Program-made: the position numbers and the translations under genes
NCBI GenBank assembly: GCA_021234155.1
Contig: JAJEKV010000085.1
Coordinates: forward strand, 124,001-188,000
Direction: 5' to 3'
Length of the DNA: 64,000 nucleotides
Origin: Isoetes taiwanensis
Lineage: Eukaryota; Streptophyta; Lycopodiopsida; Isoetales; Isoetaceae
The notes under the pieces: model-generated
Database searches by the model: none
Told to the model about the DNA's origin: nothing
Seen by the model: only the letters and a program-made list of their open reading frames with translations
In this document: positions 18,637 through 61,620 of the stretch, one piece after another
Position numbering within the stretch: position 1 is the first letter of the stretch
Layout of the letters: every line of letters begins with the position of its first letter

Positions 18637-21600
18637 CCTTTTTTTTTTTTTTTTGGAATGAAGGCAGATGTTGTATTCATTATAACATGAAATACATTTA
18701 GAAAAGGAGCTTAAAAATCCCCTTTCTCAACAGAAATAGTTTCTCACAAAGGAGAGATCTCAAGTCCTAATATATATAACAACAAAAGGTGTAAACTGGA
18801 AAGAGCCTGATAAGTTTAAAACAGCAAAGATAGTCTTAGTTTCCTCCTGATCAGAATACTTCTGCTTCAGCTTGAATCAGATCTCCAAGATCGAATTCAT
18901 CTATCTTGTTCCTGCTAAGAATCTGGAGCCATTCATCCATCTCATGTATTGTGTGCATGGTGTTATCCAGCAGGCTAACAGATAGTGCCTCCCTCTGCCT
19001 TTGCTGCTCCTGAAACAGTTTTTTGAAGACGGGCTTGAGAGAGTTATGCTGCCACAGGTCATCCTGCTTCAGAATTATCCGTAAAGCTTTTGCCCTGATA
19101 ATGAACATCTTAAGTGAAACCAGTGTGTCTCCAACCTCGACCTGATTCATTTCAGCATCCGGATTGAACATCCTGAAAGAGCCTTGAGCCCTCAATTTGT
19201 CGAATTGAGCTGCAAGACAATAACAGAAAAAATAAATGATTAGATAATAGGCCAAGATGAAGTTTTAGATGCCAATGGTTCCAGACTGCCATCCCCATCC
19301 TGCAAGACCAACTTGAAAAAGTTAAACAGACCCTTGAATGCACCAACTTTATCCCACATTTTGTCATATTCTAGTCCCCCTTCTCTCCTATGAGCAATTG
19401 CAGTCTCAATCAGTTTTGCAATGAATTGTCCAGTTCATATTTGGAGGCAGATGCTGCATGGTGACCCTATTCCTGTGAAGCCAGATACTCCATAAGGCTA
19501 TGGATCTAATTGTGGACGTGAAGGGATTATTTTCATCAAGGAAAAGTAGGAAGCTACCACTTGTAGTACCCGGGCTTAAGATGGTTAGATTCTGCACCCA
19601 TTTCCAGAAAGGCAACAACCATGGGCACTGGAATATGTGTAGAGGAGTCTCTTCCTGTCCACAGCCCACCCCGCATGATGCATCTATAACATCATTATAT
19701 TTTGAAGCTGCCACATTGCAAGTAAGGCTTTGATTGAGGATAAGCCATCTAAAGATAACCAGCTTCCTTGCACAATACTGTTTCCAACCAGATCTAGCCA
19801 TCCTGATAGCCAAGTTTTCCTCACATCGCCATTTATCCGAGATTTTCAGATTGGAACTTTTAAGAAGCAGGGGTTAAATTCTCGCAACCCTATAGCCCTC
19901 CTTTCCTTTTACAGTCCAAATAGTTTGGGACTCCCTTAGCTCAGCTATATCTCCTACTTTTTCCATGATTTTTTTGAAGATCTTCCTATCTGTCCCACTA
20001 GTCCCCAAGGTTGTGCAGATTTCATCCCAAGTTATCCATCTGTTATGTATCCTTAAGTCTTCTAGAGTTTTTATCCCTGCCATGACCCATTTTTTGTATC
20101 TCTGTGGATGTTTAAGAGCAAGACAGCCATCGTGAGGATTGGAGAAGCCCATATGCCAGAAAAAGTGAAGATCTGGGCATTGTATATTGCTCTCACTTTC
20201 CCTGAAAACAAGAGACACCTGATTCCAAGCATTAAAAATCCTTCTCATCATTTGTGAGGTGTTCGGGGCCGCTTCAAATTGTATGAAGGCTGACTCGGGA
20301 AGCTGATGGGGTATCCTCTTACCTGCCGGTAAGGACTGCTCAAGCCAGTGCCTTATAAGGCCCATTGCAGGGGATTTAGATCCATTTATTGCCCTCCAAA
20401 CTAACTTAGTTGCTAGGGCTTGAGCCTGTTGGAAGAGATCCTTGCAACCCAACCCCCCTTCTTTCCTGGATCTGACCAGATTATGCCATGCCATCTTGTG
20501 GTGTTTGTTCCAAATAAAGTTTCTAACTGCTGCTTCAATTTCCCTGTACGATCTTTTGTCAGCAATTATGGCAGACGAGAAATAGACATGAGTGGCCATG
20601 ATAACACTGTTGGCAATTTCAATTCTCCCAGCCAATGAAAGGGTAGATGGATATTGAGTTAGTTTCCTTTTTATCCTGTTTACAATGCTTGCCCAGAGCC
20701 CGTGTATATTCATATCAATTGCCAAAGGGAGTCCCAGGAGTTTGGTAGCAGTCCCCTTAGCCAAGCATTGTACACCTTCAATGGTCTTATCTTCTGTCTC
20801 CATGATTGCTATGCATTTACTCATATTCAGGTGCACTCCAGAAGCATCCCCAAAGAGGCAGAGCCTTTCAATAAAATTCCTAATACTGTAGCCATCATTC
20901 TTGAGGAAACAAAATGTGTCATCTGCATACTGCATAGCTGTTAGATGTGACGAGCCTGCCGAGTTGACCCTCTAGGCAACTCGGGATCTTGTCAATACTG
21001 TGCTAATTCTAGGTTGGTGTGACAAACAATTGGATATGGTGAAGAATTGAATCTTCCTCTTACACAGTTGAAATGACACGCTCAAAACTCAATAAGCAAA
21101 ATACTTATGATCTCAATATATTCAGATAACATTAACATCCAAAGAATCCATATTCTTCAACAAATATAACATCTAATTGTGAACAATTCAACCCAGGAGC
21201 TTCGCTCAACCACGATCCTCAGCTGCACTGCTGCCATCCCTTGCTTATTCACTGCACATGCACTCACTGGGGTTAGTCCTCGTGACTAAGTGGGGATCCC
21301 TGGCTGCCACTGCATGCATGGAAATACTCTGGAAATCTCGGATAAGCATAAACACAGACGGAAAATCCTACGTGAGTACAGTGCTAAGACAATGACAACA
21401 TAATCCAAAGAAATATCAACATGAACATCAGAAGCAAGACATAGTCAAAAATACCAAACCATCATGATACATAGCTCCGGGACAATGGGAAGCTCAAATG
21501 ACCTACATGCGGGGCCCCGTTAGCGGCGAAATGCCCGGCCGCTCACATTCCGAGCCCCATGGCTATGGAGTTGGTGGGGTGAACCTCGTATCGATACCCT

Positions 21601-24600
21601 TCCCAGCCCGTCGGCCGGAGGACCTCTTACCATGGAGTCACAGAGGGTGACATAGCATCCCTGCCGGAGAACTATGCCCGGTGTCCGCGAGCACAAGAAC
21701 CACGATGAACATGAGCATGCCGAGCAACCTAGGCCACCCAAACCTAGAAGCCCGACCCAGGAGGTTCCAAGTACATAACAAAAGATCAAGATCAACAAAG
21801 TGGGACAATGCAAGACCATAACATGTGAAGTTCATTAGACAATCTACGATAAATGTGCCTAGATCATACTCTTGCCCGATGTTGCCCCTGTACAAACTTG
21901 CCCATGTTGAGGTAGCTAACTTCATGATCCAAACATGTTGAGGAAGTCACAAGCCTAACTATCATTGATGTAGCTCCCATACCTATGTACTTCGAACAAA
22001 GGAAAACAACATTCCAAACAATGCAAACTTACCTCGGAACCATTCTCCCATGAGGATAATCCATTAGCTACGATGCTTTTGTTAAAATATTGCAACAACT
22101 TAGAAACTTACAGGATATACACTTAGACGAATAGTGCTCCATGCCATAGCCTCATCTGGACACTCCATATACCTCATATATTACTCTCTCGGCCCAACTT
22201 CTCCTGGTCTCCAAAGTTCCAACATGCTTTCTTTCTTTAAAATTATTAGCTAAGGTTTTAATATTCCATATTAAAACCCCAAGTTCCTTAGCTTTCAATT
22301 TAATAGCACATCTAATGCATGTTCTCAAATCACGCCTTTGCCAGCTTAAAACCCACTCCGTCTCATGACCGTAAATGCATATAACATCTGTCAAAGGATT
22401 CCAGACCTAGGCCCCATCTCCGGGACATCCCCAAAAGCCCAAAATTACGATTAGCTTATTATTCTTATAAATGCATCATATATTCTCTTAGTTAAATTAT
22501 TTCCACCATTCATAGAATGCTAATTCTTACTGTTGTTATTATTATGCCCAGCTCTTCATGCTCAAATTTCCTATGCTGGCTAGGCCTTTCCTTAAGCCAA
22601 GGCACAACCCAATTCCTTCTATGATTACATAGCTTTATAGTTTTTAACATGCAAACAATGAATTCAAAGCAACAAATTGGCAATTCCAGATATAAACAAC
22701 AAATCAAGACCAAAACCCAAAAGTTACAGGAAACAAACGGACAGGAAGCAGCATAGACCTATTTCGGCCCCTTTGGCTCTGATTTTAGCATCGATTCTCC
22801 ACTTACTTACAGCCCACAACCCAAATCGATCTGCTCCCAACTCAAATCAACCCGATTCAACTGGTTTTGATGCATTTTGAGGCAGTTGGGTCGCTGGAGG
22901 ATCTCTTCAAACACTGCGGAACAGCCATGTCGACTCGTGATTCATTCCAACCAGCCCTGTAGCTTCAATTTCGGCCCATTTGGGTGCTATTGCAGCCCAT
23001 TTCCAGGAGTGTCGGAGCTGGATTATTGCTGCCTCAGAGCTGGACCAGCTTTTGGACTCTATCCATAAGCCTTGAAGTGATTCAAATTCGACTCTATTGT
23101 CTCAAATCTGACTGCTAGGCAGCAATTTCGGCCTTCCTAACTATGCCCAACTGCTTGGGAAGAGCCCATATGCTTCTATTAAGTTTCCTCCATCATTCCT
23201 CAGTTAGATCCAATGCTATCTATCAAACAAAGCCTGCAAATTCCATCTCTGAATCTAGGTTCACATCAATAGATAAGCAACACCCAATCCTTTATCAAAA
23301 AGCATGAGCCAATCATAGCAACAGCCATGTGATCCATAGAATCTACAGAAAAGCCCCCACCTGAAAGAGAAGAACGATCTGATGCAGTCTCTTCAAGCTC
23401 TTGCCTCCACAACTTGGATGCAATCCTCCTCCGGGTGCCTCTGCAACTCAATACCTTCTCGAGCTCCTCTCTTGCAAAAATTCCTCACGTACCACAAAAA
23501 GCCCTCTTTTCCAATATTGCCTTTTTTTTATAAACCCTTTGTTTACATGAGCTCATGCTGCATGGATGCCACAAGTACATATACAACTCATATACGTACC
23601 ATACACAAATGCGTATACTGAACCATTAAGTGGCCAGGTCCGTTACATTAGAGTATCATGATTGTTCGGCAGATTCAGACCTTGAATTTCTTTGTTCTCC
23701 AAGATAGCTTTGATAATTCTTGTCACCATTTCTGCAACAATCAGGAAAAGGTATGGTGCAAGAGGGCAGCCCTGCCTCACCCCTCTTTGGATTGGGAATG
23801 CTGGAGTTGGGGAGCCATTAATGAGAACTGCAGAACTTGCAGCGCAATTGAAGCCATGTATCTTCTGAATTACCCTGTCAGAGAAACCCATCTTACTCAT
23901 TGCCTTGTAGAGAAATGGCCATTTGATGGTGTCATAAGCCCTTTTAAAATCTAGTTTTAAAAGGATGCAGCCCTGTTTTGAAAGCTTATTCCAGTGTAAG
24001 CCCTCATAAGCTCCTATATAATTATCCAAGATACTTCTGTTAGGGAGAAAGCCTGATTGAACTGGATCGATGCTCTTCATTAGAATCATCTTTAGCCTGT
24101 CTGCCATGATCTTGACAATGAGCTTGTATGTGGTGTTTGTAAGGGAGATTGGTCTCCAATCCCCAAAAAGAATAGGATTCTCAACTTTAGGAATGAGGGT
24201 AATCAATCCTGCATTGATGGCTGGATGTAGAAACTGTGCAGACCAGGCTCCCTGCACCAATCACATCTCTTTTTAGGAATTTTCAGAAATGAATGAAGAA
24301 CTCCGGTGGTAGTCCATCCGGTCCCGGACTTTTCCCACTTTTCATACCCCTTAAAGTATCAAAAATTTCTTTCTCTGATGGCATTTCCAGCAACTCTTCA
24401 TCATCAATGCTGCCTGACTGCTTAACCAAGTCAAACAGTTCCTGAGCTCTATTTTCATCAATCTGCTCTTCCTTGAACATCTCCACATATTTCTCTCTGA
24501 AGAAGTTTTGGATATCTCTTCCTTTTTCCAAAATGAACCCATCTTCAGTTTGTACCTTTGTAATCCCATTGTTAGATAGCCTATTTTTGGCCACCCTAAA

Positions 24601-25285
24601 GAAAAAGGAATTATTCCCCTTATCCATGTAGCTGGTTAGCAGACATTTGGATTTGATGGCCAAGGATTTAGCTTCATCTTCCTCAATGTGCTTTACCTGA
24701 AGCTCCAGAACTTCCTCAGATTGTTGTAAGCCAGCATTGTTCTTGTCTGCAAATAATTTTTCTCTCACCTCCTTTATCTGTTTGTAGATTTCATCTTTTT
24801 CTGCTTTCTTCCCCTGAAACCATTTCTTCCCCCATTCTTTAATCCATCCTTTTATCTGTTTATACTTGGCTGTAAAGTTCTTCATGCATCCACTATTTCC
24901 TATAGGAGGAATAGTGTAAAAATAGGATTTAAAATCCTCATTGAAACCTTCAACTGCCAGCAAAGAAGTGTTCAGCTTAAAAGAAGTGTCATTTGCTATT
25001 CTGCTGTTCATTTCATTCCTTGTTTCCAAAACTTGAGGGAAGTGATCAGAGATTGAGTTCCCAAAATCTGAGGTGCTTGTAGCTCCTGCCCACATCTTGG
25101 AGAAAGGTTTTTGAATGTAAAATCTGTCAAGGAGGCAGAAAACCCTGTCATCCCCTTTTCTCTTATTGCTCCAGGAAAACACTTGAGAAGAGGATGGGGA
25201 CTGATCCACAAAAGGGGAAATGAAATTATTCCATTTTTCCCTTTCCCCCTTTGACATGTTTGATTTTTTACCCATTTTCTGCTCC
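18637..25285 (-). mobile_element. L1-type LINE, 5'-truncated, carrying a solo LTR
   Basis: The 3' poly-A lies at 18639-18654 (T-run on plus). CATGTC flanks it at 18631-18636 and 25286-25291, and the host reading GKQYM to STAPTTY is continuous across the site. Reading from 25285: end of the endonuclease (RLDRFYI-like LLDRFYIQKPF, SDHFPQVLE), linker, RT with KSGKSPGPDGLPPEF, LITLIPKVENP, KLDFKRAYDTI, RGVRQGCPLAPYLF, then QYADDTFCFLKN after the LTR, then a zf-RVT block (CGQEETPLHIFQCPW, 19406-19813). A further ORF at 18851-19255 (coiled, Q/E-rich) lies downstream and is unusual. Own length without the LTR is about 3.9 kb; few disabling changes, so fairly young. Confidence 0.92.
20946..23647. mobile_element. 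Solo LTR of about 2.7 kb (fossil)
   Basis: Begins TGTGACGAGCC and ends CCGTTACA, the TG...CA form of an LTR, and is flanked by TTAGA at 20941-20945 and 23648-23652, a perfect 5-bp target duplication. No internal retroviral-type genes and no second LTR are visible, so it is best read as a solo LTR left by recombination. It interrupts the reverse transcriptase of the LINE and is therefore younger than that LINE. Ty3 or copia membership cannot be decided from the LTR alone. Confidence 0.85.
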
Positions 25286-26166
25286 CATGTCAACGGCACC
25301 CACAACATATAAAAAGATTCAAACTGTAAGTAAAAACTTTTGGGAGATTGAAGTAGGACAAGTGGACAGAAAAAATCAATGGGAAGCACATCCTATTAAA
25401 GGATCTAGAAACCTTCATTGTTTCCATGGGTGCTCAAATCACATGACACATTTACAGGTCAGAAACCTCTCTTGCTTTTGCACATATTGTTTAGATTTGA
25501 ATTGGGAATCTTGCCCCAATTCATCATATACTACGAAGTTCGAATTAGTTGTGGTACAACCCATCAGAGCTATTATTGCAGAAGAAGTACATGATGAAGA
25601 ATAAGAAGCATATATTGGCAATGCTTACTTATGTAGCATGCAAGTATCTATAGGAGATGTCTTTGCACCAAAGCTAAGTACTTGGTGTTAGAAGACTTTA
25701 TAGATATGCAAGGACAGAAGTTTGTGAAAGGGGATGAGGTCACAGAAGGGACATACTCTGAGAAGTTGGTGAATTTTAAATCCAGCTACAAGTTTTGTAG
25801 AGGAAATAAAGCAATTGTTTATGCTACTCAAGTTGCAAAGAACAAAGTCAGGTTGGTTCAAGCAAAGTAAGTTGTTAAGCAGGGAGTGGTTTACACTCTA
25901 AGTGTCGACGAAGAACAAGATATTCTAGAGAGGCTTCCCAAGTTATTGGAGTAGTGGAAAGAGAAATTGTGTAACGGGTAGTGTATCACTACTTATATGT
26001 GTGCTCATGACTACTTTTATGGATATAAAGAAGTTTCCGTATTTTGCATTCTCATTTTTGATGCTTCAGTTCCAGAATTTTATACTTGAGTGTTGATTCA
26101 ATTCCAAAATTTCATACTTTTTTCAATTGCTAGTATTTTATATTATTTTAAATTGCTGGTTTACAG

Positions 26167-26313
26167 ACAGGGCACTAAGGCCAATTTACAAGGTAAAACA
26201 TCTAAGTACAAAAGAATTAAAAAAAAGCACAAGGCCATCATATTCATTGAAGGCACTAAGGCCATTACATTTTTAAGGCATAAGGCCATTACATTCAAAG
26301 GGCACAGTGGCCT
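26167..26313 (+). repeat. 24-25 bp minisatellite, left part
   Basis: Units of about 24 bp carry AAGGC followed by AAGGCC and ATTACAT. The array continues in register on the far side of the giant element (41225-41330), where units read AAGGCACAAGGCCTGGATT. The last left unit stops at GGCCT and the first right unit starts at GCCTGGATT, so the element cut a unit in two. Confidence 0.8.
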
Positions 26314-26400
26314 GGGTAAAAGCACGCTGTGGTGTTCCAATTCGGCTGTCCCCCCTGTCCCCCCAAAATGTGGCGTTGCATCCACCACTTTTGTGGTATG
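26314..26400 (+). repeat. Left terminal inverted repeat of giant element
   Basis: A 22-bp perfect core starting GGGTAAAAGCACGC, then CCAAAATGTGGCGT, then CCACCACTTTTGTGGTA. The CCAAAATGTGGCGT box is in direct, not inverted, orientation relative to the right end. Confidence 0.85.
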
Positions 26401-27819
26401 AAAGTATAATTATGGCACCGCTCAGCTGCCGGTATTTAAGAATAGAGTCCCGCTCAGTTGTGGGGGAAATTCTAATTTCAAAAACTAAAATTCAAATTCA
26501 AATTCCTATTCTTTGGCCCCTTCCTGTTCTTTGCCTACGTCCTGTTCTTTGGCTCCCTCCCTGCTGCGAGCTCCAATCCATTCTGGATATGGATGTCAAT
26601 GAGGTAATCTGTACACAAACCGGCATTTCAGACAGGAGAAAACGAAGAAGAACCAAGGAACAAGAAATGTTGAAGAAAAGACGCCAGAGGAAAAGAAGAA
26701 GAGAAGAAAAAATTGGAGCTTGCGTAATGGGCGAAAGGATCCGGTTCATCAAGAAGTGCAAGCGATGAACGCCGTTGTCCTTAATTTGCTAACGTCTTTC
26801 CATAAAATGGACCAAAAGAATGGAGGATAGCACAAAGAAAGAAATTTTACTTGATTTTTTGAGGGATAAAACATTGGAAAAATTCATAGGTGAAGAATTA
26901 AAGGATTTGGAAGCCAAGAGCATCGTTATAAGGAGCCTCTGGGACTCCATGCAGACTGTCAAACTCTCTACCAGCAATGACTGCCTAGCAGCCAAGAATA
27001 AAATTTGCCTTTGCAATGTACGTACCCACCGTGCAGATTCTCAAACAAGTGACAAAATCAGCTAGCGAGATCTTGGAAAGGTATTAGGTGTTCACCCAAG
27101 AAACCCGCAAAAAGGCAAAAAAAAAGAGGGAAGAGATCGATTACAATGGTGGAAAATGGGTTTCTTACAAGAGGGCTAAAAGATTCGATGCAATTTCGGA
27201 TGAACATATAGAAAAGATTCAAAATTTTGGATTGAGAACACCCGAGTGTCTCCTAACACAAAGGATGTTAGAACTAGAAGATTGGAGAAATGTAAGAGAA
27301 GAACATGATGCCCACTATCCGGAGGAATCACGAGGTTAGTTTATTTACATTATTCATGTTTTCTTAGTTATGGTGCTTAGTGTGGTGGTGCATGTGGTGG
27401 TTATTGTGTTGTCAAATGATTGTGGTGTATCTTGTATGCGATGTGAATTGTGTGTAGTTGACTCTAGTCCGAAATGCAATATTTAATGTTTGGAATATTA
27501 TTAGAACATGACAGAATTGAGTACTCCTTTCTTTGGGTGTGTGTACAGTCTAAAAAATACTTGAGCTATAACTAACTCGATCCCGAGATACAAATTTTTG
27601 TTCAATAAAGACAATTTTTGTCGATTCAAGCACTCTGTTGGAAAGTATGATATATTAAAAAGGATCTTACAAAATTTGGCTTTACAAAATTTGGCTTTCC
27701 ATTGAAAGCTCTGTGCCTGAGAACTAAATTTACATGCATGATCCTAAGCAACGAGAAATCTTTGGTATGATAGCTCGAACCGGTGCATCCAAAATTATTG
27801 TTTTACGCACTAAAGCATC

Positions 27820-28165
27820 TAAGCTTTCTGCGGCCATCCCAATTTAACAGATGAGGTTTGCCGATTGCTTCCCGCATCCCCTAGTGGTAAGTACGCAATT
27901 ACGCCAAGAAAACCCCGCTGCGCAGAGTCGAGCGGACAAGTGACGAAGAACAAATATACCAAATTGCCCTTGCAGCATGTAACATAAGGCGATGGACCTT
28001 GTCTAAGAGCTCTCTTCCCGCAATCGACTCCAAGCATAGCCATTGAAGGGCCAAACATCCGATCTCGTTGTATGCCTTTAGGTTGGATTCGAAATCAGCA
28101 AAGAAGGTGGATTTAGGCATATCCACCTTCGAGAAATTGATCACGAGCCCCGTTTAACATGTGCG
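27820..28165 (-). mobile_element. LINE reverse-transcriptase fragment
   Basis: The minus-strand translation reads GLVINFSKVDMPKSTFF (28095-28150), the segment that follows the YADD motif in L1-type reverse transcriptases, with further RT-like sequence to about 27820. Neither end of a LINE nor a tail is visible. It lies in the first long intron of the transposase-like gene. Confidence 0.5.
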
Positions 28166-28439
28166 AATGCCCTCCTCGCTCACCCTACAATAGCGTAATG
28201 ATCTCTCGAATATGGATCCTACCATGTTGCGGAATGAACTTCTTCGATTTGGCTTAATTGGGAATGAAACGCCAAAAATCGGGAGGCGTAGGAATGGGAT
28301 TTAGGACCCGATCCTTTTCTAATGATTAGAAGAGGAATGTAATTATTATCGGGTGTCAATTTTCGAAGTGTTTATGAGAGCGTGCTAGGCAGATTTTTTA
28401 TGTCGACGAAATAGGATAAAAGTGGATTGATGTGATGTG

Positions 28440-29125
28440 TGGTGTCGGATGGTGTGGTGTGGTGTGGTGTGGTGTGGTGTGGTGTGGTGTGGTGTGGTGT
28501 GGTGTGGTGTGGTGTGGTGTGGTGTGGGTTGCGTTATGTCCATGGTGTCATGTGGGTGTGTGCATGTTAATGTATGATATGTGTGGATTCAATTTTATTT
28601 ATTCTCCCCCCCCCACCACACCCCATCTATCCCACCACCATAGACTACCACCACATCTTTGCCCACCACATTACCACCACCACATGCACACACATCCCCC
28701 ACGCCACACCCTTCACCACCACCACCACACTCCACCACCACCACATCACACCACAATCCACAACACCACACCACACCCACACCACTACACCCCCCACCAC
28801 ACTCCACCACCACCACACACCACCACACACCACCACGACCACCACACCCCACCACCACCTCCACCACACCACATCATAGCACCACACACCACTACACACA
28901 CCACCACCACCACCCCCCCCACCACCACACACCACTCCACCACACTCCACCACCACACACCACTCCACCACACTCCACCACCACCCCCCACCACCACCAC
29001 ACACCACTCCACCACCCCCCCACCACCACAATCCACCACCACCACCCCCCCACCACCACCTCCACCACCACCACACTCCACCACCACTCCACACTCCACC
29101 ATTTGGTGTATGGTGTGTGGTGAAT
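28440..29125. repeat. GGTGT array followed by CCACCA-rich tract
   Basis: About 80 bp of uninterrupted 5-bp TGGTG repeats (28450-28525) are followed, after a 75-bp spacer, by about 490 bp of CCA/CACCA-rich sequence (28610-29100). The strand bias flips from G/T to C/A, so the two parts are inverted relative to each other and could pair. All long ORFs here are low-complexity (His/Thr/Pro or Val/Gly) and are rejected as genes. Confidence 0.9.
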
Positions 29126-31536
29126 GGTATGGTGTGTGGTGGGGTGGTGCGTGTGGTAATGTACACAACACTAAGGTGCTGGATTAAGTGAATATGATGA
29201 GTGTGGGGCATGGTATGGTGCATGGTTTGGTGTGGTATACACATCCTAACAGTTTAGTGTTCATTTCATGCGGATGCTATTGTTCAAGAGGTTTTACGGA
29301 CCAACATCCAAAATTAAGATTAGATCTTCGAGCTTTTGAGAAGCTAAAACCACAGTTTGTTGTGAAATTGAAGGACTTCAATAGTTGCTGTTGCATTCAA
29401 GCACGTGAGGATGCAAATGCTAGTGGATGGACTCAATGGGATGAGAACCAAACATCCAAGAATTGCACTTGCACTGCGATGTTTGTAGATCACATGAACT
29501 TGGTCAATGCGGGGACACCAAAGCATAAAATTGCAAAATCTGGGAAGCTTGTGGAGATCTATATTGTGTCCAAAGAGTGAATTAGATGAGTTTCACAAGA
29601 AGGCGTGCATCTTTGGAAATTGTGGTTGTGTGGAATCAAGAAGTTTCAGACTGTCCCATGGAAGGAAGTGGCGTTAGGAAAGTAAAATGGGAGTACATTG
29701 ACTATGAAAAAAGACAACGTCTCGAAGTTACTGGTAGGAGGCCCGACTCATCAAGACAATGAGACAAAACCCAAGGAGCTTCGGATAAACCGAAAGAGCG
29801 TCTAAAATCTTTCCAACTTGCATAATTTCAGGTACCAATGGCGGGCAAAACAGTTTTAGGAGCTTCGGAGAATCTCTCGGTAGATGCATGTCTCGGTGAG
29901 TGGATTTTCCGAGAGAACTATACATTCAAGGAACAAGAGGAGGTGCAGTCGATGCGCTGGGTCAATAACCAGATTACCATTTTGGTTCAAATAACATATC
30001 AGTATGACTCAGTGGCAGATGAGATTATCAAGGAAACACATTACTATGTATCAGATGATAGGGAACCGCGATACTTTGTTAGGTACAACAACTTCATGAA
30101 GCACCACAAAATCTGGAGCGAAAGGAAGGGTTCCAAGCAGGACATTATGTGTTTTCGGATGGTGCGAAGATCTCAATTCAAGGCTTCTAGACCATTTTAC
30201 TTTGTGGCTAGGTACACAAACGACACTGATGTCTATATGATGTGGAATTTTTTTTGTTCTAACCACGGGAAAGGTGAACACGATGGCAAAGCTGCTGAGT
30301 TGAAGAGATGGTTAAGACAACTGCAATTAAAATACAGCAGCATAAAATTGGGTAATGCTCATGAAGTGGTAGAAGTTGCCGAAGAGATGTTTACTTGTGG
30401 AACATCCGAGTGTATGAACACATCTGAAACCAGTAAGAGGAAGAATATTAAAAGGTTCTTTTGGGAAGTCAAGGTGGAGGATATAGATAGAAAGAAAGCA
30501 AGGGGTGCAGAAAGGATTTTGGACACTAGGGCAGATCCATTGTGTACATGCATTCAATCCTGAATCTCCATTGCGGTTGCACCGCGAGGGAACTTTCATG
30601 CTTCCTGCGACTCTTTTGCTTGGATGGCATGTGGGGCGGTTGTGTGAACAAGCACTACGTTGATGATTGGAAACTTCAAGTTATTGTACCATCCTCCAAT
30701 GTGCATGCTGACATTGAGGACCATAAATCCAGCAGGTCCTTGTTCTCCTCCAATCCCACGATGTTAGCAGATGCACTTAGAGTTGGTGATAATTTTGCTG
30801 TCATTGCTCCGAAAGGGAATGATGAGGGTTCTGAATTTTGGATTCTGATGTGCACAAAACCAAAATGGATAGTGGAGAAAGACTTCCAACTCAATGGAAC
30901 ATGGTACCTCGCCGGTGATAGTGTCATAGAAGGTTTACAAGAAGGGCGCAAGATCAACCGTCAGCTATGATCTTTGCAGTAAAGACGCCTTAGGCATAGT
31001 ATTCACAACACATATCTGTGCAATCAGACTTCACATGCCACCAACTAAACGTCAAAACAGGACTGTATATAGGCTGGATCCTTTAGATGAGGAGAAAATT
31101 TTACAGAATTTACCCGAAGTTCTTTCTGATGATGATGAAATGTAAAACCGATACGTAGTTTTAACTCATGTGAAGTCTTGTGCTTCAGCTGTGAAAATGA
31201 GTTTGTCTTGATTTCTTTTGAAGATTTGAATTCTTACAAACACTTGATTCCTTTGTTTGTGAGATGAATTGAATATGAATTTTCATTGAAATGAATCGAG
31301 GTTACAATAACAATTATGTACATAAGAAAGATATCTGATGATTTAAGTACGAGGTGACTCATGCACCTACATACTTCCCAATACATATGTTCCTCTCGGT
31401 TCCGGCTTTTGTTGCTTCTAATCTTAAAACTTCAAGCATGAACACTCTAACATCAACTAGATCACAGTCTGAAATGTCCACAACCTACGATTAACCACAC
31501 TTTATCAATAACGAGTTTGGTTTGTCTCTGCTGCAT

Positions 31537-33362
31537 TTAAGTTGACTTACTAGATCGGGCAACAATATATTCACTCCTTTTAAGTACCCCCTCACAAATT
31601 TGTGCATAAAAAGCGAACATACGGCGAGGGCCATGAATGACCATCGGTTTGAAGAGGCGCTTGGAAATTTTCACAACATCCGAGGTTGTAAAGCTGAAAT
31701 TATTGTGTTCAAGCAATTCCAGGAACCTGCACTCAAAGTTTGTTGTCATTGTGCCACAACAGCAAAATGCAATGAGCAAGCACTAACCTCTCAATATGTC
31801 TGCTTCTGCCATGCAAGCCCGAGCTATCAAAGTGATATATCCCTGGTTTATATCTGCAATGCGAGACACCGGTGTAACTACAATTAGAAAATGAATCCCA
31901 GTGATGTCCATCACAAGCAGGCAAAAACATGTACTGGCACTTATCCAGATTCACATGTTTCCTTATTGTTTTGTAACTATTTGTGTCCTTGGACAATGTC
32001 GAGTGAAAAAGAGGGTCAAAGAAATGAAGGGGATGGCTCATTCCTTGGAGAATCAAGTATCTGCAAACATATGCATATCATCTGGCACAATCCTGATGAT
32101 CACAAATCAGATGAAAGTATCACCTTGAGAAGAGGAGGATCAATTCATCATTGAACCACTGCGTATCAGCTTCCAAAATTTTGATGTCGGTGGAGCTAAT
32201 CACGACAGTTTCAGTTCCACTCAGCACCACTTCCAGATGTGTATTTGGCTTTAGATAGTCAGGGACTGCCGAAGCTCTATTATCTCTAGTTCTAAGCACA
32301 CACGAGAACATTTGCTCACAATCCATTCAAATATTTTAAATTGAAAAAGTAGGGGAATTTTATTTGGAGGGTTTTTTTGGAGATGGCTTGGAGGGTTCCA
32401 TGTGAGAATATTCCTTAGAATATTCTATTGTGGCATGTTGCACCAGTCGCCATTTTTTTTTTCATGTAGCAAAATTCACTATAAGACCTTTTAACATAAA
32501 ACAAATTTGCGTTCATCTAATGAACATGTGTAGTGCGAAGGTTATAACATATACCATAATGAAATCATTTTGAGTGAACATTTAGCGAAATCGCTAATTA
32601 CCACACTAATAACTATTATAAATTGATATGGAAATCTTCCTACCAAGAACTGTTGTTCTTCCTCAGGCGAGGACCCTTTGGAGAACATCCTCTGTCAATA
32701 CAGGCTGACTGATGTCCAAGAAAAACCTGGGGTCGTGGTTTAGGACTTTCACAAATACATACATCAGATGTTTGCATGGAATGTATATCCTTTTCAGTTC
32801 TCTACCCATGAAATCGGGCATGTGCAGGTGGGATGCTTGCATATCCTCACTGTATAAGTTTCATCTGGTTGACGCAACTGGTATGCAACATCCCTATTGG
32901 TGATATTGGCCTTTACAGACTCAATATCACACTCCAGTTGTAAAGCTTGATTAAGCTTTGTTTCAGCTTCTACACAAAGCTTCCCTCGTCTGTGCATGCG
33001 CTTGCCAAAACGTTCCATGAAGTGGACAGAGCTGTTAAAAGTAGAAGAATTCACACTAGTCATATTGGGCATTGAGTTCCGTGGGGTGATCCCTCTAACG
33101 GAATAGTTCCCTCTCTCCAATGTTTCCAATTCTGCACTAGTTATATTTACTCCTTTTGCCACAGGCCAATCTGCTGGACGAGTTGGTATGGCTATGATGC
33201 CTGCAGCTGGATAGTAGGTATGCTGCACATTTTGAGGGCAAAACCAAAACCTTTGTGTGACCTCTATCCCATTTACTTTCCTTTGTCCAGTGAAGCATGG
33301 TGCAATAGTAGACTCTGTACGAACTTTATTAATTTCAGCATTGCATCTTCGACATACTCCTG
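31537..33362 (-). CDS. SWIM zinc finger plus Ulp1/C48-type protease gene (frame changes)
   Basis: A first visible exon starts after an acceptor near 33362: CRRCNAEINKV, then FWFCP (a Cys-rich module), followed by DWPVAKGVNITSAEL and a SWIM finger (CTCP near 32815; CKHLMYVFVKVLNHDP near 32760). A single frame change separates the first and second SWIM Cys pairs. Later exons carry a Ulp1-like fold: WFNDE-type start (32120-32326), then FFDPLFHSTLSK, FLPACDGHHWDSF (candidate catalytic His near 31902), IYHFDSSG (candidate Asp near 31827) and a FEC motif (candidate Cys) in 31537-31779. SWIM fingers bind DNA or protein; Ulp1 proteases cut SUMO-like tags. Ulp1 genes are known transposon cargo. Upstream exons may lie in the tandem array. 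Confidence 0.7.
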
Positions 33363-33379
33363 TACAAGGTATGTAGCAT

Positions 33380-35635
33380 CATCAAAGATCATCCCTTATT
33401 TATTGCTTATTGTTTGTTAGCAATTTGCTCGGGTGTTTATTGCTTATTCATTGTTTATTGCTTATTGTTTGTTAGCAATTTGCTCGGCAGTTTATTGCTT
33501 ATTCATTGTTTATTGCTTATTGTTTGTTAGCAATTTGCTCGGCTGTATCTTATCTAGCAGAAGACAAAGATCTAAAACGGACACTAGACTACAGACCCAG
33601 TGTAGCGGCGCACCCCTTCCAAAAAGGTTGGCATTTTCATTCACAATGTTTTTTTTAAACCAAAAATAAGGTTCAATGCATTGTAAAATTATTGTTTGTT
33701 ATGGTCTTAGAGCCATTTGCTTATTCATGTTCATTGTTTATTGTTTGTTAGCAATTTGCTCGGCTGTATCTTATCTAGCTGAAGACAAAGATCTAAACCG
33801 GACACTAGACTACTGAGACCAGATTAAGGGCGGGCGCACCCCTTCCAAAAAGGTTGGCATTTTCATTCACAATGTTTTTTTTTAAACCAAAAATAAGGTT
33901 CAATGCATTATAAAATTATTGTTTGTTATGGTCTTAGAGCCATTTGCTTATTCATTGTTTATTGCTTATTGTTTGTTAGCAATTTGCTCGACTGTATCTT
34001 ATCTAGCAGAAGACAAAGATCTAAACTGGACACTAGACTACCGACCCAGTGTGGCGGCGCACCCCTTCCAAAAAGGCTGGCATTTTCATTCACAATGTTT
34101 TTTTTTAAACCAAAAATAAGGTTCAATGCATTATAAAATTATTGTTTGTTCATGTTCATTGTTTATTGTTTGTTAGCAATTTGCTCGGCTGTATCTTATC
34201 TAGCAGAAGACAAAGATCTAAACCGGACACTAGACTACGGACCCAGTGTGGCGGCGCACCCCTTCCAAAAAGGTTGGCATTTTCATTCACAATGTTTTTT
34301 TTAAACCAAAAATAAGGTTCAATGCATTATAAAATTATTGTTTGTTATGGTCTTAGAGCCATTTGCTTATTCATTGTTTATTGCTTATTGTTTGTTAGCA
34401 ATTTGCTCGGCTGTATCTTATATAGCAGAAGACAAAGATCTAAACCGGACACTAGACTACAGACCCAGTGTGGCGGTGCACCCCTTCCAAAAAGGTTGGC
34501 ATTTTCATTCACAATGTTTTTTTTTTTTTAACCAAAAATAAGGTTCAATGCATTATAAAATTATTGTTTGTTATGGTGTAGATAACGCCGGCACGAGCAA
34601 ATTTGAAAAAAAAAATTTGAGGCCATGTGGCCATGGCCAAAATGGCGAGGTGTCTTGTTTTGGCCAACATGGCCCGTCCGGTTTTTTTTTGCATGCCCGC
34701 CGAGGGCTGTGGCGATATCGCCTTAACACCTGTTCCAAGGGTTTACAGAAGGGTTTAATTATGGAAGATCTTCTTCTTGTTTTTGCGCGGTGGCGGTCTT
34801 GCCAATGGTTCTGTTTTCCTAAAACAGAGTTTCTTCTTTCAAAAGTTTTGTTAGTTTGAAGAAATATGAAGAAAACCGGAGGTAAAGAAGGATGTTGGAT
34901 CGGTAGAGGGATTTTTCAGCAAATGTTGCCGCAAATTGAGATCTTAGTGCAGAAATTTGCACAGCCCGGTCCCTGAATCAGTTAATTAAAGTCGAAAACA
35001 AAGATCTCATGGACGCGCAGAGAAGAAAAGCGAAAACGAGATGCTCTGTTGTGCCCGATCAGACAGGGCAAGGATCTTGTTGCCTTGACAAAAAGCAGCG
35101 ATGGCAGCGCCGCTTTTGTTTTAATAACGCCCTAGGAGAATCGGCGAGCTAAAAATGTTTTGGGACAGGTTGCGTTATTAGTGGGTAACAGCTGTCCAAG
35201 GGACGGTTGAGATTTAATCTAACCCTGTAAACCCGAGGAGCAGGGTGTTAAGGTCTTAGAGCCATTTGCTTATTCATGTTCATTGTTTATTGTTTGTTAG
35301 CAATTTGCTCGGCTGTATCTTATCTAGCAGAAGACAAAGATCTAAACCGGACACTAGACTACAGACCCAGTGTGGTGGCGCACCCCTGTTAAAAAGGTTG
35401 GCATTTTCATTCACAATGTTTTTTTTAAACAAAAAATAAGGTTCAACGCATTATAAAATTATTGTTTGTTATGGTCTTAGAGCCATTTGCTTATTCATCG
35501 TTTATTGCTTATTGTTTGTTAGCAATTTGCTCGGTTGTATCTTATATAGCAGAATACAAAGATCTAAACCGGACACTAGACTACAGACCCAGTGTGGCGG
35601 CGCACCCCTTCCAAAAAGGTTGGCAAGCATCTGGT
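33380..35635 (+). repeat. About 222-bp tandem array, seven units
   Basis: The landmark GCACCCC recurs at 33610, 33836, 34059, 34256, 34478, 35380 and 35602, giving spacings of about 197-226 bp, with one 902-bp gap caused by an insertion. Each unit has a T-rich stretch (TTATTGTTTGTTAG), then a coding-like stretch that in the better units reads LAEDKDL, RTLDYRPSVAAHPFQKGW, then CACAATG and a T-run. The array lies between the divergent SWIM/Ulp1 and methyltransferase genes. Confidence 0.9.
34578..35251. mobile_element. 674-bp insertion in tandem array
   Basis: Unrelated sequence splits unit 5 from unit 6 exactly within TTATGGT/CTTAG of the repeat; GGT occurs on both sides (34575-34577 and 35252-35254), a likely 3-bp target duplication. 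The ends are loosely inverted (GATAACGCCGGC against TTAACACCCTGC) and TAACRCC motifs recur inside. The ORF at 34548-34859 is not convincing. Probably a non-autonomous DNA transposon. Confidence 0.65.
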
Positions 35636-35709
35636 AATTAATTTTACTTATTTTTTTGCATTCATGTGAATATAGATCTTGAACAAACGTGTGACACTTT
35701 CTTAAACAT

Positions 35710-37010
35710 GTGGCAGCTACTGCAGCAATTGATTTGGATTTATCCGAGGCTACTTCAGAGGAAGATGTCCAACATTTTGACATTGCCAAGGTGATTACAA
35801 ACACTTCACTTGACTTGCATTGTGGAGACATTTTGCGTACGTATGAACAATATTCAAAGAAGGTAGAAGCCCCAGCTTTTCAAAATGTTCGAGATTTTGC
35901 AAAGAGAAATGCTAGGGAGTTGCATGAGTACAAGAGAGGTGGTAATGTCAGGGATTGGGGGTTTGAGTTAATAATTATTGATTTCCCTACAAATAACATG
36001 TCATGCGGGGAAGATTTTGAGATTCCTCCATGGAACGTATACAACACTTCTTTAATCCAAGCCTCTTTCTCGTTCGGCACATTGTGCCTTGATGATGATG
36101 GCTGGTTGGTCTCCATTTCTTCAGTTGAACAAGCAAGAATAGTGGAGAAGGATTAAAATGCTTGGAGACCTTTAGAACTTACTACTTGCATCAGGATGCC
36201 CCTTTTGGATACATGAAGGACAGAATTGGGAAGTTCACAAGCAACGTGTTGCTAGTGACTGTATGGTCAAGAAAGGGTACTTCACAAAGCATTCAGAGTA
36301 ATGTTCAGTTCTCAAGTAAGTGATCTTCAATTTTATCTATTACATTATAAGCTATCTTATTTCATGTATATTTATTTTATGTTTATCTTAGTTTTACTAT
36401 ATCTGGTTTCATGTTTTATTAATATTTGTCCATTTCAGACAAATGTCTTTCAATCTCCAGGCAATCTCTTGCTCATTTCTTCATGGAAGGCAGTAAACTT
36501 ACAGCAAGTCCTACTACGCCTGGTAGGAAATCCACCAAGAAGTCCATTTCTTTCATGGAGTTTATTATTGAGAATTTTAGTCCAACAGAAGGCTTGGTAT
36601 TGGACCTACTTAGCGGCACAGGTTCAGCATTGGTAGCGTCTGCTATTTTATCTCGTCACTGCTATGGATTTGACAATGATAAACTGTTAGTAGAACATGT
36701 AAAGGCATCTCGTCTATCAGCATTAGCAAGTGTTTCACAAAAGTTTGATGAAAGGAACATTGATCATCCCGAGGATTCAGACGACGAAGTGGCAGAGGAA
36801 GATGAAGAACCTTCATAATATGTCTGTTTTTTTCTACTGTAATTTTTTAGCATTTATGTCAATGCTACTTAACTTTTTTTACGTATTAGCATTCTTCCTG
36901 TGTATGCAGAATCAGCAGCATCACTATTGTCAACAAGGGAATCCCCAATTCAAGTGGAAAGGAGACGTCGACGTTGTCTGCTTGTAGATGATGAGTGTGA
37001 AGAAGGATGA
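35710..37010 (+). CDS. DNA amino-methyltransferase of beta motif order
   Basis: The first block (35710-36150) holds LDLHCGDIL and then FELIIIDFPTNNMS, at the place of the catalytic DPPY-type motif IV (degenerate here, IDFP), then LCLDDDGWLVSIS. A short piece (36165-36313; YYLHQDAPFGYMKD, NVLLVTVWSRKG) ends at a donor-like CAA/GTAAGT. After an intron ending in TTTCAG at 36439 comes FMEFIIENFSP then VLDLLSGTGSALVASAI and RHCYGFDND, a clear AdoMet-binding motif I with its acidic follow-up. Motif IV before motif I is the beta order of N6-adenine/N4-cytosine methyltransferases. An acidic tail and a final exon with ERRRRR (36910-37010) follow. One frame change near 36157 is likely. It could modify the element's DNA; activity is unproven given the altered motif IV. 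Confidence 0.7.
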
Positions 37011-37435
37011 CGACTTCTTGTGGCTGTATTTTTATAACATTATTGTTTTTCATAGTGTTTTGGCTTCCGTTGTTTACTTCAAACAATTTGCTTTACAATG
37101 CTCTCTTTTTCTATGCCTATACTGTGGACATGATAATAACAGTATGAACATTAGTATGATGTATGGATATAACATAGTAAGGAGTATGGTGTATTTATTA
37201 TAATGGTATGGACAATATACTACTTTGATGTAGTTATATTTATTATAATATGTAGTCTAAAAGTGCATCTTTTATACCTCAGAACCATTGACAAAATTAA
37301 AAAAAAGAAGACACAATCTAATAAACCCTCTAAACCCTTCCCAGAAAAACCCTCCAAAAATTCGCACTCAAAAAGTACAACACATATCATAGAAATTTTT
37401 TTACTTATATTGACTTTCAAAGAGTTTTACAAGAT
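37011..37435. other. AT-rich spacer between convergent genes
   Basis: Lies between the 3' ends of the methyltransferase (+) and HAD (-) genes. I see no gene; it probably holds both 3' UTRs. Confidence 0.5.
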
Positions 37436-38694
37436 TCATTTATGAAAATACTTGTCGAGCATTTTCATGCAGTTGCGCGACTCTTCAGAATCCCACATGT
37501 TCCACATTTGATGTTCCTTCACATAAGCTGGCACACTTTTTGCAGCCAGAAGTCCCTCCAGCCATGGTTTGAGTTGCTCCAAAAGGAAATTGGAATCCAA
37601 CCTGTCGGGAGCAAAACTATTTGGACATATCATTGTGTTCGGCTGGTTGGCAGAACCCTTATATCTGCTGTCATCTATCAACAATGTGTTTGTCACCTGG
37701 TATCTCCAAAATTTCTGGTACACTTTGGACAGATCCTTAAGGAAAATTGGCTTATTAACCACTTTTAATTTTGTGTTGGTGCAGTCATCCTGATTCCAAA
37801 TAAAAAGAAATCTGCCCTTATATTCCTGCAGCAACTTTCGTCCACCAAGTCAACATTACTCTTAGCCATGCTGGACCACAATGCAATCTCAAATTTTGAA
37901 AAACACCATTCTAAGAACTCCTGAAATCCAGGCCTGGAAACTGCGAACTTTTGATGGTTCAATTTCTGGATGGTCACTTCTGGCTCGGCCGATGCAGGGA
38001 TCCTCTCTTTCAAGTCATAAAACTTGCCTAAAACCCCATTAAAATCCAGAACAAGGAGAATTTCAGTTAACCTCTTGGTTTTTGTTGGTTGAGGTTGTAT
38101 TGGACTCGTTGAGCAGTCTGCATCTTGTCCAGGATCCGGGGTTTCTTTGTCAACTTCATCACCTGCATCCGCATTTGGCTCATATTCAAAGACCAAACTT
38201 TTTTCTGGTGAAGGACCCCGTACAGAATGAATCTCAAGGGAATTAATTTCCCCCCCTAAATCATATGCACTAGGAATCTCTTCGTGATGGCTTCCAGTTG
38301 CAGTAGCATTTATCTTTGCAACATAATTGAAATGAGGAAGACCACAGAAAAATACAAAAAAATAAATCATGTATGTGGAATCGGTACTTACTTGATAATG
38401 ATTTGCATTCGATTGACTATCCAAATTTCATTTTGGAGTCTCCACGCCGTCAGCAGCTGGGATTGACTTAGGAGTATCAAATGGGGTGAATTCTAGGTAC
38501 AACCGGGAGGTATCTTGCAGTCTCATAACTGATCGAGGCGTGGGTAACTGTTGGATATCCTTGGTCTCAAATTTTTGCAATTCTGCAAACACTAAGTCGA
38601 TGACAACATGACAAACATTAGTTAAGGCACTTGTTTGCGGCGAATCTATATTGTTTGCAAATAACAATATCAAGCCCGGTGAGTTGACAACCAT
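37436..38694 (-). CDS. FCP1/NLI-interacting-factor-like HAD phosphatase
   Basis: A short N-terminal exon (38428-38694) leads to the main ORF (37765-38424), with an acidic region and then TEILLVLDFNGVLGKFYD. The HAD nucleophile Asp is kept, but the second acid of DxD is Asn, as in the plant DLNG/DING subgroup of FCP1-like proteins. Next come RPGFQEFLEWCFSKFEIALW and FIWNQDDCT. The end, 37436-37834, has LKDLSKVYQKFW, NTLLIDDSRYKG (the conserved D-D of motif III) and LKPWLEGLLAA. The fold looks complete. Frame or exon joins near 37800 and 38420 were not resolved. A role in dephosphorylating a nuclear target, or a structural role, is only inference. Confidence 0.75.
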
Positions 38695-38908
38695 TCAAGA
38701 GGGTCACGCACCGGGCTTTTTACTCTCTTTTCGATGTTCTGTTTATATATATCTAAAGTGCCCCCTAAAATGAGCGGCGATCTCATCCCAAAGGGGCACT
38801 TTAGATACAATAAACGGACAAAAGAAGACTAAGTCAACCAGATGGAAGAGACTAAGCCGGGATGAAAGAGACACGAGTACAAGCATCGAGACTTCCCAAA
38901 CCTTGCTT

Positions 38909-40995
38909 TCACCCCTCTTTGGACTTACTTGTGTCTATTGGTTCTTGTGGTACCACTCGAACACCAAAAGCCAAAAGCCATGTCTCACTCATAATGTGGC
39001 CTGGCCGGGGGCTGCAAAGAGGTTCTAGAGTGTCTGCGCAAAACAAATTCAAAATCAATAGAGTCTTTAGACGAGGGTTAGAGATGATAATATTTACCTC
39101 AAATGGTGTGATAGACATGGAATGTGATACTGGTGACTGCATTCTGCTATCACAACTGGCACCATTTTACCCTCCCATTTTAGACAACGTCCACAAAATG
39201 GACAGCCTTCATCACCCTCTTCTTCTGCCTCAGGAAGCATTGGAAGTGCAGGATCTAAAGGAGTGTCATGACTACTACGCTCAGAAAAAATCTCAAATCT
39301 TTGCATTCGAGGTAGCAGCTCCAGCAGTAAGTCTTCACATGCCTTTAGCTCAATTTCAGTTTCTGTTAATTCCTTATTTAATTGTTTCAGCCCAGGCAAC
39401 ACTGTACCATTTAGCTCTTCATCCTTTAGTTCGCTTACAACCCGAACACCCTCTGCTGCTTTCGGATTTGCTGTCATGATTGATTGCCATCTGTGCAAAT
39501 CAGCTCTAATTTCTGATGCTTTATGCTCCATCAACTCAATCTTTCTTTTGATATCATTTTTCCTATCCTCGTTTGCTTGCAATCGTTGCTTGCATCTATC
39601 AAACCTAGCTGATGTTGCAGCCAACCATTCCTTCACAAGTCTGCCATAGTCTGCAAAACAAAACACTACGTATATGTCAGCCTCCTAACATAGTAAGCCA
39701 CGTACTGATGGAAAACCACAATCACACACCACACAACACAAGGTAGTCTCTACACACTACCACATACCACACACCACACAACATACGCTGCACAGTACAC
39801 ACCACACAACACGCTGTGGTGGTGGTGGTGGTGTGTGTGGTGGTGGTGGTTGTGGTGTGGTGTGGTTGTGGTTGTGGTGGTGTGGTGTGGTGTGGTGTGG
39901 TTGTGGTGGAGTGTGGTGGTGGTGGATTGTGGTGTGGGACATGGTGGGTGTCCGGGTTGTGTGGTGTGGTGGTGGTGGATGGAGTGTGGTGGTGGTGGAG
40001 GTGTGTGGTGGTGGTGGTGGGTGGAATGTGGTGGTGGTGGTGGGTGTGGTGGTGGTGGTGGTGGTGGTGTGTGTGTGGTGGTGGTGGAGTGTGGTGGTGG
40101 TGTGTGGTGTGGGAGTGTGGCGGTGGGAGATGGTAGAGTGTAGTGGTGGGAGATCGTGGGGTGTGGTGTGGGACATGGTGGATGCCAACAACTCACCACC
40201 ACCATACATACCTCATCTATCATTCTGGCATCCATTGCACGAAATGCCCCACAGACGGCATCATAGAGACACAACATGACAATACCGCCAACATGATGCA
40301 AAATGGTAGTAGACATACCTGATTCTTGAAGTGGATTTGATGTTACCTTTTCTGTGTTGATAGAAACAACTAGATCAAGCTTGAGATTTTTTTCTGTTGT
40401 AACACAACTAATAATTGAACATACCTGCAATGGCATGTTTTGGTCTCAGAACATTGCTCTGCTTTGCTGTTTTGATTGTGAGTTCAGATTGAATGTGTGG
40501 TCTAGAGGAACCTGATTTGGTTTTTTCCCTATCATCTTCATCATCCCTGTCACTTTTACTATTTTCCTCCTCGTCAGGTTGGATTTGCCTATGCTTTCTC
40601 TTGGGTCTAGAAGAACTGGCCTCTGCTTTCTCATCGGGAGTTTTATAATAATCCGAGAAGCTCTTCCAATTATGACCTCCCCTTTATATCGCGGATAATA
40701 AGCCAACGCCTGTGTTCCAGAGCCATTCCGCCCCATGTATGTGGCTTCCCTGTAATTCTTTTGTAAATTTGCATGAACTCTTTGTATTGATCATTGCTCA
40801 GATTCTTCAACCTGTACAAGAAAACATATGCCTTAATTTTTGCAGTTTGAACAAAACATTTGGGGGAAAATACCTGTAGCCAGATTTATTTGGAACTCTG
40901 TCACCCCAAAGCTTCTTTAGATCTTCGTGGGGCACAATCTCTTGTTTGAGGAGAGATTTCATCGTGTAACCAGTGGCGTTCAATTCTGACTCCAT
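38909..40995 (-). CDS. Coiled-coil RING-like zinc protein, five exons
   Basis: The start at 40995 (MESELNATG) lies 230 bp inside the right end. Exons as read: 40874-40995, 40425-40811, 40319-40393, 39098-39650, 38909-39033; the introns tested have GT and AG ends. Exon 2 has SNDQYKEFMQIYKRITGKP and an acidic/basic nuclear-type tract (KPKRKH-like, DRDDEDDREK). Exon 4 is a long helix (DYGRLVKEWLAATSARFDRC to LLPRMQRFE) followed by CPFCGRCLKWEG and ECSHQYHIPCLSHHLR, a RING-like Cys/His cluster. Exon 5 adds another Cys and ends SETWLLAFGVRV. One frame switch in exon 2 is possible. Intron 3 holds a satellite. A plausible role is a ubiquitin-ligase-like or DNA-complex factor. Confidence 0.7.
39725..40190. 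repeat. CACCACA/GTGGTGG satellite in RING gene intron
   Basis: About 90 bp of C/A-rich sequence (39725-39810) then about 380 bp of GTGGTGGTGG-type sequence on plus. It has the same composition as 28440-29125 in the opposite orientation. Long ORFs here are repeat artefacts. Confidence 0.9.
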
Positions 40996-41145
40996 TAGGG
41001 TTCAATCGGCAAGAAGCGGCAAAAAAACAGAGGAAGAGGTGATTCTTTCTTAATTCAAAAAGGTGGACAATGACGTGGCATAAAATTCAAAATAACCGAC
41101 GCTCATTAATTCGCACTCCCGCAATCTCCGCTTCCGTATGCACCA

Positions 41146-41224
41146 CCCGATTCTACCACAAAGGTGGTGCCAAAATGTGGCGTCAAAATGCACGTTTTTG
41201 ATACACCACAGCGTGCTTTTACCC
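41146..41224 (-). repeat. Right terminal inverted repeat of giant element
   Basis: The inverse of the left end: ACCACAGCGTGCTTTTACCC ends at 41224. Inward lie TACCACAAAGGTGGTG and a directly repeated CCAAAATGTGGCGT. GCCT follows at 41225. Confidence 0.85.
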
Positions 41225-41345
41225 GCCTGGATTCAGAAAGGCATACGACCTGGATTAAATAAAAGGCACAAGGCCTGGATTAAACAGAAGGCATGGCCTG
41301 GAGCAGGTGTATTCCACAGATTTACAAAGGCACAGAAGGCCTGTT
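41225..41345 (+). repeat. 24-25 bp minisatellite, right part
   Basis: Units of the form AAGGCACAAGGCCTGGATTA repeat about four times and degrade by about 41345. This continues the array of 26167-26313, interrupted by the giant element. Confidence 0.8.
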
Positions 41346-56852: not shown

Positions 56853-56903
56853 AGCCCCTCTAAGCCTTGTGGATAAATTCTGTGTATATACGTTCGGTGA
56901 AAA

Positions 56904-56923
56904 TAGATAGATAGATAGATAAA
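56904..56923 (+). repeat. Short GATA microsatellite 5' of oligopeptidase
   Basis: About five GATA units lie about 55 bp upstream of the start codon, in the probable 5' UTR. The duplicate at 60.5 kb has the same array expanded to about 150 bp. Confidence 0.85.
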
Positions 56924-56939
56924 TAATTTTTTTTTTATG

Positions 56940-58880: not shown

Positions 58881-58884
58881 TTTT

Positions 58885-59993: not shown

Positions 59994-61620
<1,627 letters not shown>

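Follow-up and report, generated by a model that had tools for sequence, protein, structure and literature searches.

We analysed a 64,000-nucleotide stretch of the genome of the lycophyte Isoetes taiwanensis (contig JAJEKV010000085.1, positions 124,001 to 188,000; hereafter the window, in whose coordinates all features are given). A sequence-only reading had described positions 26314-41224 as one giant DNA transposon of 14.9 kb with a five-gene cargo. Our analysis points, with a probability of about 0.9, to a pair of nested transposons. The outer of these represents a high-copy family of cargo-carrying DNA transposons with a HAD-type gene under apparent selection, and the inner one accounts for two of the supposed cargo functions, the SWIM-type protein and the DNA methyltransferase.

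Ends, target sites and copy number of the outer element

The outer element (26314-41224, plus strand) measures 14,911 bp in the window copy. Its left terminal inverted repeat, the 22-mer GGGTAAAAGCACGCTGTGGTGT at 26314-26335 (plus strand), recurs with zero mismatches at 41203-41224 (minus strand), and weaker inverted similarity continues inward of this core. The element is flanked by a 4-bp GCCT duplication at 26310-26313 and 41225-41228; judged by eye, excising the element together with one GCCT rebuilds a unit of a local tandem repeat of about 25 bp. The distances from the termini to the outer start codons are 275 and 229 bp. The sequence-only reading was accurate on the terminal core, the weaker inner similarity, the GCCT duplication and the placement of the start codons within 300 bp of the termini.

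The searched genome comprised 1,658,258,908 bases in 1110 contigs. It holds 374 exact matches to GGGTAAAAGCACGCTGTGGTGT (184 forward and 190 reverse), while the reversed pattern used as a control gave none, and the ends are therefore not a product of chance. Within the first 100 of the 374 listed places, 42 form 21 convergent adjacent pairs spaced 9.5-26.6 kb apart (median 10.6 kb), against a chance expectation of about 0.2; the same places yield three divergent pairs and one same-strand pair. The ends thus recur across the genome in inverted orientation. Searches with the left 387 bp of the element returned 536 first-look candidates and with the right 387 bp 801; the 40 scored in each case were 97-100% and 98-100% identical, respectively.

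Matching the two 40-row lists by eye gave 12 end pairs besides the window, of which nine were fetched and three (on C1054, C1030 and C1018; 22.6-30.5 kb) were left out. A copy on contig C970 was added for its open transposase frame, bringing the total to 11 copies with the window. All compared copies have both ends by construction, and the target duplications serve as an independent test: they are exact and exactly 4 bp long in 11/11 full copies, with ten different words among them, so the expectation of 4-bp duplications at other loci held. The possibility that a repeated flank alone explains GCCT is ruled out, since the ten other copies carry other 4-bp words. The end-pair spacings also rule out 14.9 kb as the normal size; the usual element is about 9-10 kb, the length without the nested insertion.

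The window also contains a 324-bp non-autonomous relative, a miniature inverted-repeat transposable element (MITE), at 11828-12151. It has perfect 22-bp ends of its own (GGGTAAAAGCATGTTAGGGTGT), which differ from those of the large element by four mismatches, and is flanked by CAAG duplications. Its removal restores a reverse-transcriptase-like frame that reads as a retrotransposon without long terminal repeats (non-LTR; named from reading). Over 12 target duplications, those of the 11 copies and the MITE, the A+T content is 56%.

A second transposon inside the window copy

The segment at 32352-37369 is a second transposon family, separate from the outer element. It is 5,018 bp long and is bordered by its own 8-bp duplication, AAAAAGTA, at 32344-32351 and 37370-37377. 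It contains a frame reading as a SWIM-type transposase fragment (32794-33378, minus strand; CxCx(n)CxH identified by eye), a tandem array of about 220-bp units with an inserted piece (33399-35640), and a beta-order DNA methyltransferase-like gene (35695-36818, plus strand). Each of the ten other outer copies, nine first read and the one on C970, jumps from window base 32348-32351 to 37370-37371, and the SWIM frame, the array and the methyltransferase frame occur in none of them. The uninterrupted AAAAAGTA site is found as the exact string in six of the nine, and in C970 too. Given the segment's own duplication, these empty sites and its absence from 10/10 copies, the SWIM and methyltransferase frames are foreign to the outer element. 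The idea of a single giant element that moves as a unit with its transposase, SWIM/Ulp1, methyltransferase, HAD and RING genes has in its favour that every frame lies between the ends in the window, but can practically be discounted on this evidence. The supposedly undescribed five-gene combination was an artefact of nesting, and what had been taken for one SWIM/Ulp1 gene is split between the elements, the Ulp1-like exons (31645-32326) being outer and the SWIM frame nested.

The nested family is itself repeated. A genome search with its left end turned up 172 candidates, and the 40 scored, itself excepted, are 90-97% identical. Ten loci were fetched, five of them with both ends; three of the five show exact 8-bp duplications, one agrees in 7/8 bases and one has none. 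A duplication of 8 bp fits the range of Mutator-like elements (MULEs; 7-12 bp) or of the Kyakuja-Dileera-Zisupton (KDZ) group (7-8 bp). The Pfam SWIM family gave a weak match (11.5 bits; cut-off 19.6) in one of eight frames scanned, from locus L035. That locus is also the only one of the five with both ends to hold the methyltransferase-like gene seen in the window copy; the gene is partial in L040, L042 and L044, where L044 is cut by the locus end. It matches N6_N4_Mtase at 31.3 bits (E 2.6e-7; cut-off 26.7) and reads DFPTNN rather than DPPY at the position of motif IV; no relatives were found at E up to 1e-3 among 4713 candidates. Outside both elements, a degraded relative of the nested SWIM-type protein region (71% in DNA) lies at 7168-7439.

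The outer transposase

The predicted transposase gene has two exons on the plus strand. Exon 1 (26589-27335; limits set by eye) encodes a basic N-terminal part and is open in the copy on C913, and exon 2 (29220-30970) encodes the DDE/D core and forms a 440-residue open frame in the copy on C970. The intron between them holds (TGGTG)n and (CCA)n repeats (28437-29101, plus strand). Across the aligned rows three Asp residues are conserved, in 56/56, 58/60 and 52/54, while a nearby Glu is conserved in only 36/54. A structure model of the homolog P0003 places the three Asp at plausible positions of an RNase H fold, and a second structural alignment of a transposase homolog gave a DDE fold match. 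A DDE/D (RNase H) fold of the outer transposase is thus predicted, as shown on a homolog.

Family searches place the protein poorly. Pfam and NCBIfam scans gave no transposase-core family for the outer transposase, one of the scans covering two homologs only. Pfam includes a KDZ transposase family; neither that nor any other transposase-core family appeared for P0001, or for 28 homologs, whose matches at E up to 1 showed 25 Pfam families. The best match among the 28 was DUF6597 (3/28, E 2.4e-4), and one helix-turn-helix of ISL3 transposases matched at E 0.21. A search for a solved sequence relative gave none at E up to 1. A pattern search of viral contigs picked up 55 stretches, of which none was confirmed.

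Older relatives of the gene occur nearby. A diverged copy, split by insertions, is spread over 10672-10878, 17940-18595 and 25287-25774 (plus strand), and the minus-strand sequence at about 19300-25392 reads, from its frames, as a large non-LTR retrotransposon inside it. An unassigned gene at 18854-19210 (minus strand) lies amid the older pieces and also accompanies a diverged transposase in locus L047 (9227-9496), where the exon 1 homolog is 53% identical.

Cargo of the outer element

Besides the transposase, the outer element carries three genes or gene regions, all on the minus strand. An Ulp1 (C48 peptidase)-like gene of two exons occupies 31645-32326; it scores 16.4 bits against Peptidase_C48 (cut-off 20.7), and a catalytic Cys is not recognised. 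A predicted FCP1/NIF-like HAD gene lies at 37439-38427. Its joined exons reach 54.9 bits against the Pfam NIF family (E 1.1e-14; cut-off 21.8), and each half alone is also above the cut-off. An exon encoding a coiled coil and a RING-like region (39097-39651) matches RING families weakly, the best at E 0.0046 and below cut-offs. Exons at the right end (40408-40995) are tentatively joined to the RING gene and may be its 5' portion. The stretch that separates them from the RING exon contains (CCA)n repeats in inverted orientation (39715-40168, minus strand). The gene set thus has long (CCA)n arrays, inverted relative to each other, close to either end (28437-29101 and 39715-40168), an arrangement also present in the copies with listed frames.

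The regions of transposase exon 2 and of the Ulp1-like, HAD, RING and right-end exons are present in 10/10 other copies, covered to 96-100%; for transposase exon 1 the figure is 38-100%. The proposal of a cargo-bearing plant DNA transposon therefore stands as regards the true ends, the DDE-fold transposase and the HAD, RING and Ulp1-like genes, and falls as regards the methyltransferase and the SWIM protein.

The HAD gene has 6104 candidates in the genome and 135 listed matches, and 12 scored rows are free of stops over the whole query. When the best 60 of the 135 HAD matches were set against the best 60 of 150 transposase rows, 17 pairs lay within 25 kb of each other, all on opposite strands, 15 of them spaced by 2.15-2.63 kb and two by 11.9 and 17.4 kb. 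Protein databases contain five relatives, the nearest 49% identical and two named plant ones 30% and 34%.

Purifying selection on the predicted HAD gene over the family's history is supported by pairwise ratios of nonsynonymous to synonymous change (dN/dS, Nei-Gojobori) of 0.41-0.72 in 28/28 pairs of eight stop-free copies. The sample consisted of six of the 12 rows free of stops over the whole query and two more diverged ones (residues 74-292 and 8-293). Against the most distant copy, C1066, in which HAD is 69% and the transposase 76% identical to the window, the ratio is 0.42-0.50 in 7/7 pairs. The HAD motif is DxDxT; the cargo protein reads DFNGVL there, with Asn in place of the second Asp. 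Phosphatase activity is therefore doubtful, and the protein may bind rather than cut phosphate.

Several observations weigh against this account of a mobile family with selected cargo. The copies used for dN/dS were picked for stop-free frames, and the values come without a significance test. Among the 11 full copies the six coding stretches show no third-position excess and change about as much as two non-coding stretches, which goes against selection on recent branches; both this and the broken frames are what dead copies, or errors in the assembly, would produce. Several gene frames, the transposase included, are broken in the window copy. The Ulp1 and RING assignments fall below Pfam cut-offs, Foldseek gave no match for the transposase in PDB and viral structures at E up to 0.001, and cut-and-paste movement is a prediction from sequence. 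A diverged locus on C1064 (L047-L048; 12.6 kb fetched, its ends not found) carries an intact transposase frame, 60% identical to that of the window, and shows no Ulp1, HAD or RING match at E up to 0.01. In their place stands a gene with 31% identity to the one at window 18854-19210. The cargo may therefore not be universal in the transposase lineage.

These points bear on the alternative that the cargo is passively hitch-hiking, as captured host fragments without function for the element. The cargo-free 12.6 kb at the diverged locus, the many HAD rows that hold stops and the flat third-position signal among the 11 copies all speak for it, and plant transposons are described as often capturing genes (PMC13317346). 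It accords poorly with the 12 HAD rows that stay stop-free over the whole query and with dN/dS values below one in all 28 pairs, the seven involving C1066 among them, and we consider it rather unlikely. A HAD gene retained by selection on the outer element remains our preferred explanation.

Differences among copies

The broken frames need to be read against the way in which the genome was sequenced. The published assembly is described as spanning 1658.30 Mb, with 204 scaffolds and 909 contigs, and as built from Oxford Nanopore (v9.4.1) and Illumina reads with Bionano maps and Pilon polishing (PMC8566536). Base changes were counted over window 26314-41224 and the copies in L011-L030 and L045-L046, with C970 as the reference in which motifs were defined. 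When insertions are included, copies differ at up to 24.8% of CAG/CTG bases, against 4-6% three or more bases away. With insertions excluded, the top five of 32 trinucleotide pairs are CAG/CTG (18.0%), CCG/CGG (17.6%) and three CG-containing pairs (12.1-15.9%), against 5.7% overall. The enriched contexts are CHG and CG, those that plants methylate.

Decay of methylated cytosine as the only cause is rejected, as the commonest changes at CAG/CTG are CAG to CGG and CTG to CCG; changes of the decay type, to CAA (75) and TTG (49), are also common there, and make up 17.8% of differences at CAG/CTG and 21.2% far away. Base-calling errors at methylated sites, probably in part nanopore errors, appear to be mixed with real change. 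Some of the frame differences of the window transposase fall at CHG or CG sites, so the damage to this copy may be smaller than its sequence suggests.

Other genes in the window

Outside the transposons, the frames at 53631-56990 read as a thimet/organellar oligopeptidase-like gene, and those at 60164-61280 as a tandem copy of part of its 5' end. A solute-carrier-like gene, likewise named from its frames, lies between the two at about 58881-59357.

Relation to known transposons

The known superfamily closest to the outer element by description is Sola, reported to have a DDD transposase, 4-bp duplications, inverted ends of 11-1124 bp and sizes mostly of 2-9 kb, with some above 15 kb, and to occur in moss (PMC10741241). 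The outer element resembles this description in its 4-bp duplications (11/11 copies, and CAAG at the MITE), 22-bp inverted ends, size of 9-10 kb and seed-free plant host, and in the three conserved Asp at plausible RNase H-fold places of the structure model, with the nearby Glu in only 36/54 rows. It differs in adding Ulp1-like, HAD and RING genes, and its duplications are not AT-rich as those described for Sola2-type elements (PMC3627910), at 56% A+T over 12. The likeness is one of description, and the chances that the element is a lycophyte branch of Sola with extra genes seem to us evenly balanced. Such a placement would refine rather than oppose the reading of two nested transposons.

VANDAL/KIU Mutator-like elements of eudicots are likewise plant DNA transposons with an Ulp1-like gene beside the transposase, in their case of the VANC type, and Ulp1 genes are described from plant Mutator-like elements (PMC13317346). 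The outer element has another transposase, inverted ends and the HAD and RING genes, and its 4-bp duplications set it apart from the MULEs, for which 7-12 bp are given (PMC10741241). Anti-silencing has been shown for VANDAL/KIU and is a proposed role here.

The KDZ group (Zisupton, Kyakuja and Dileera, some with TET/JBP genes in fungi) also consists of DNA transposons with accessory genes, and the large size and Ulp1-like gene recall it. Membership, which the sequence-only reading had hinted at, is very improbable: the duplications described for Kyakuja and Dileera are 7 and 8 bp (PMC12730594) against 4 bp here, the Pfam matches shown for 28 homologs include no KDZ family, the transposase differs, the SWIM frame belongs to the nested element, and the outer element is without a DNA-modifying gene.

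The cargo HAD itself, through its match to Pfam NIF and its five database relatives, resembles plant FCP1/NIF-like HAD proteins (for example in Morus notabilis), from which it differs in being carried by a high-copy transposon and in the Asn at the second DxDxT Asp. Most known cases of plant DNA transposons with captured or cargo genes are Mutator-like elements, Helitrons and CACTA. Titles and the starts of abstracts yielded no paper joining these genes in one plant transposon; subscription journals are thinly covered in that literature, and absence from print is not implied. What appears to be new is the combination, in a seed-free plant, of a high-copy family, a different transposase, 4-bp duplications and a linked and apparently selected HAD gene.

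Proposed mechanism and implications

In the scheme that we favour, the outer transposase would recognise the 22-bp ends, excise the element and insert it elsewhere at cuts staggered by 4 bp, which would leave the duplications seen in all 11 copies. The element carries with it the Ulp1-like, FCP1/NIF-like HAD and RING genes, whose regions are present in 10/10 other copies. The HAD protein would likely assist the element within the nucleus, acting for instance on transposase stability, transcription or silencing, and the Ulp1-like, HAD and RING proteins together might act through SUMO/ubiquitin or transcription. The window copy was later invaded by a transposon of 5 kb that makes 8-bp duplications and has a SWIM and a methyltransferase-like frame. 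It is possible, and we propose it tentatively, that a seed-free plant transposon lineage has kept the HAD, Ulp1-like and RING genes under selection as a kit for modifying proteins, which would shield the transposase or work against silencing. We know of no such self-carried kit on this transposase lineage.

Two cautions for genome annotation follow from this work: reading a single copy can make a nested insertion look like novel cargo, and where methylated repeats are assembled from nanopore reads, apparent gene breaks may be spurious. For the biology of the family, the question of whether ubiquitin/SUMO and phosphatase-like factors encoded by transposons themselves serve to shield the transposase or to evade silencing, already open for the Ulp1-carrying VANDAL elements, now becomes testable here.

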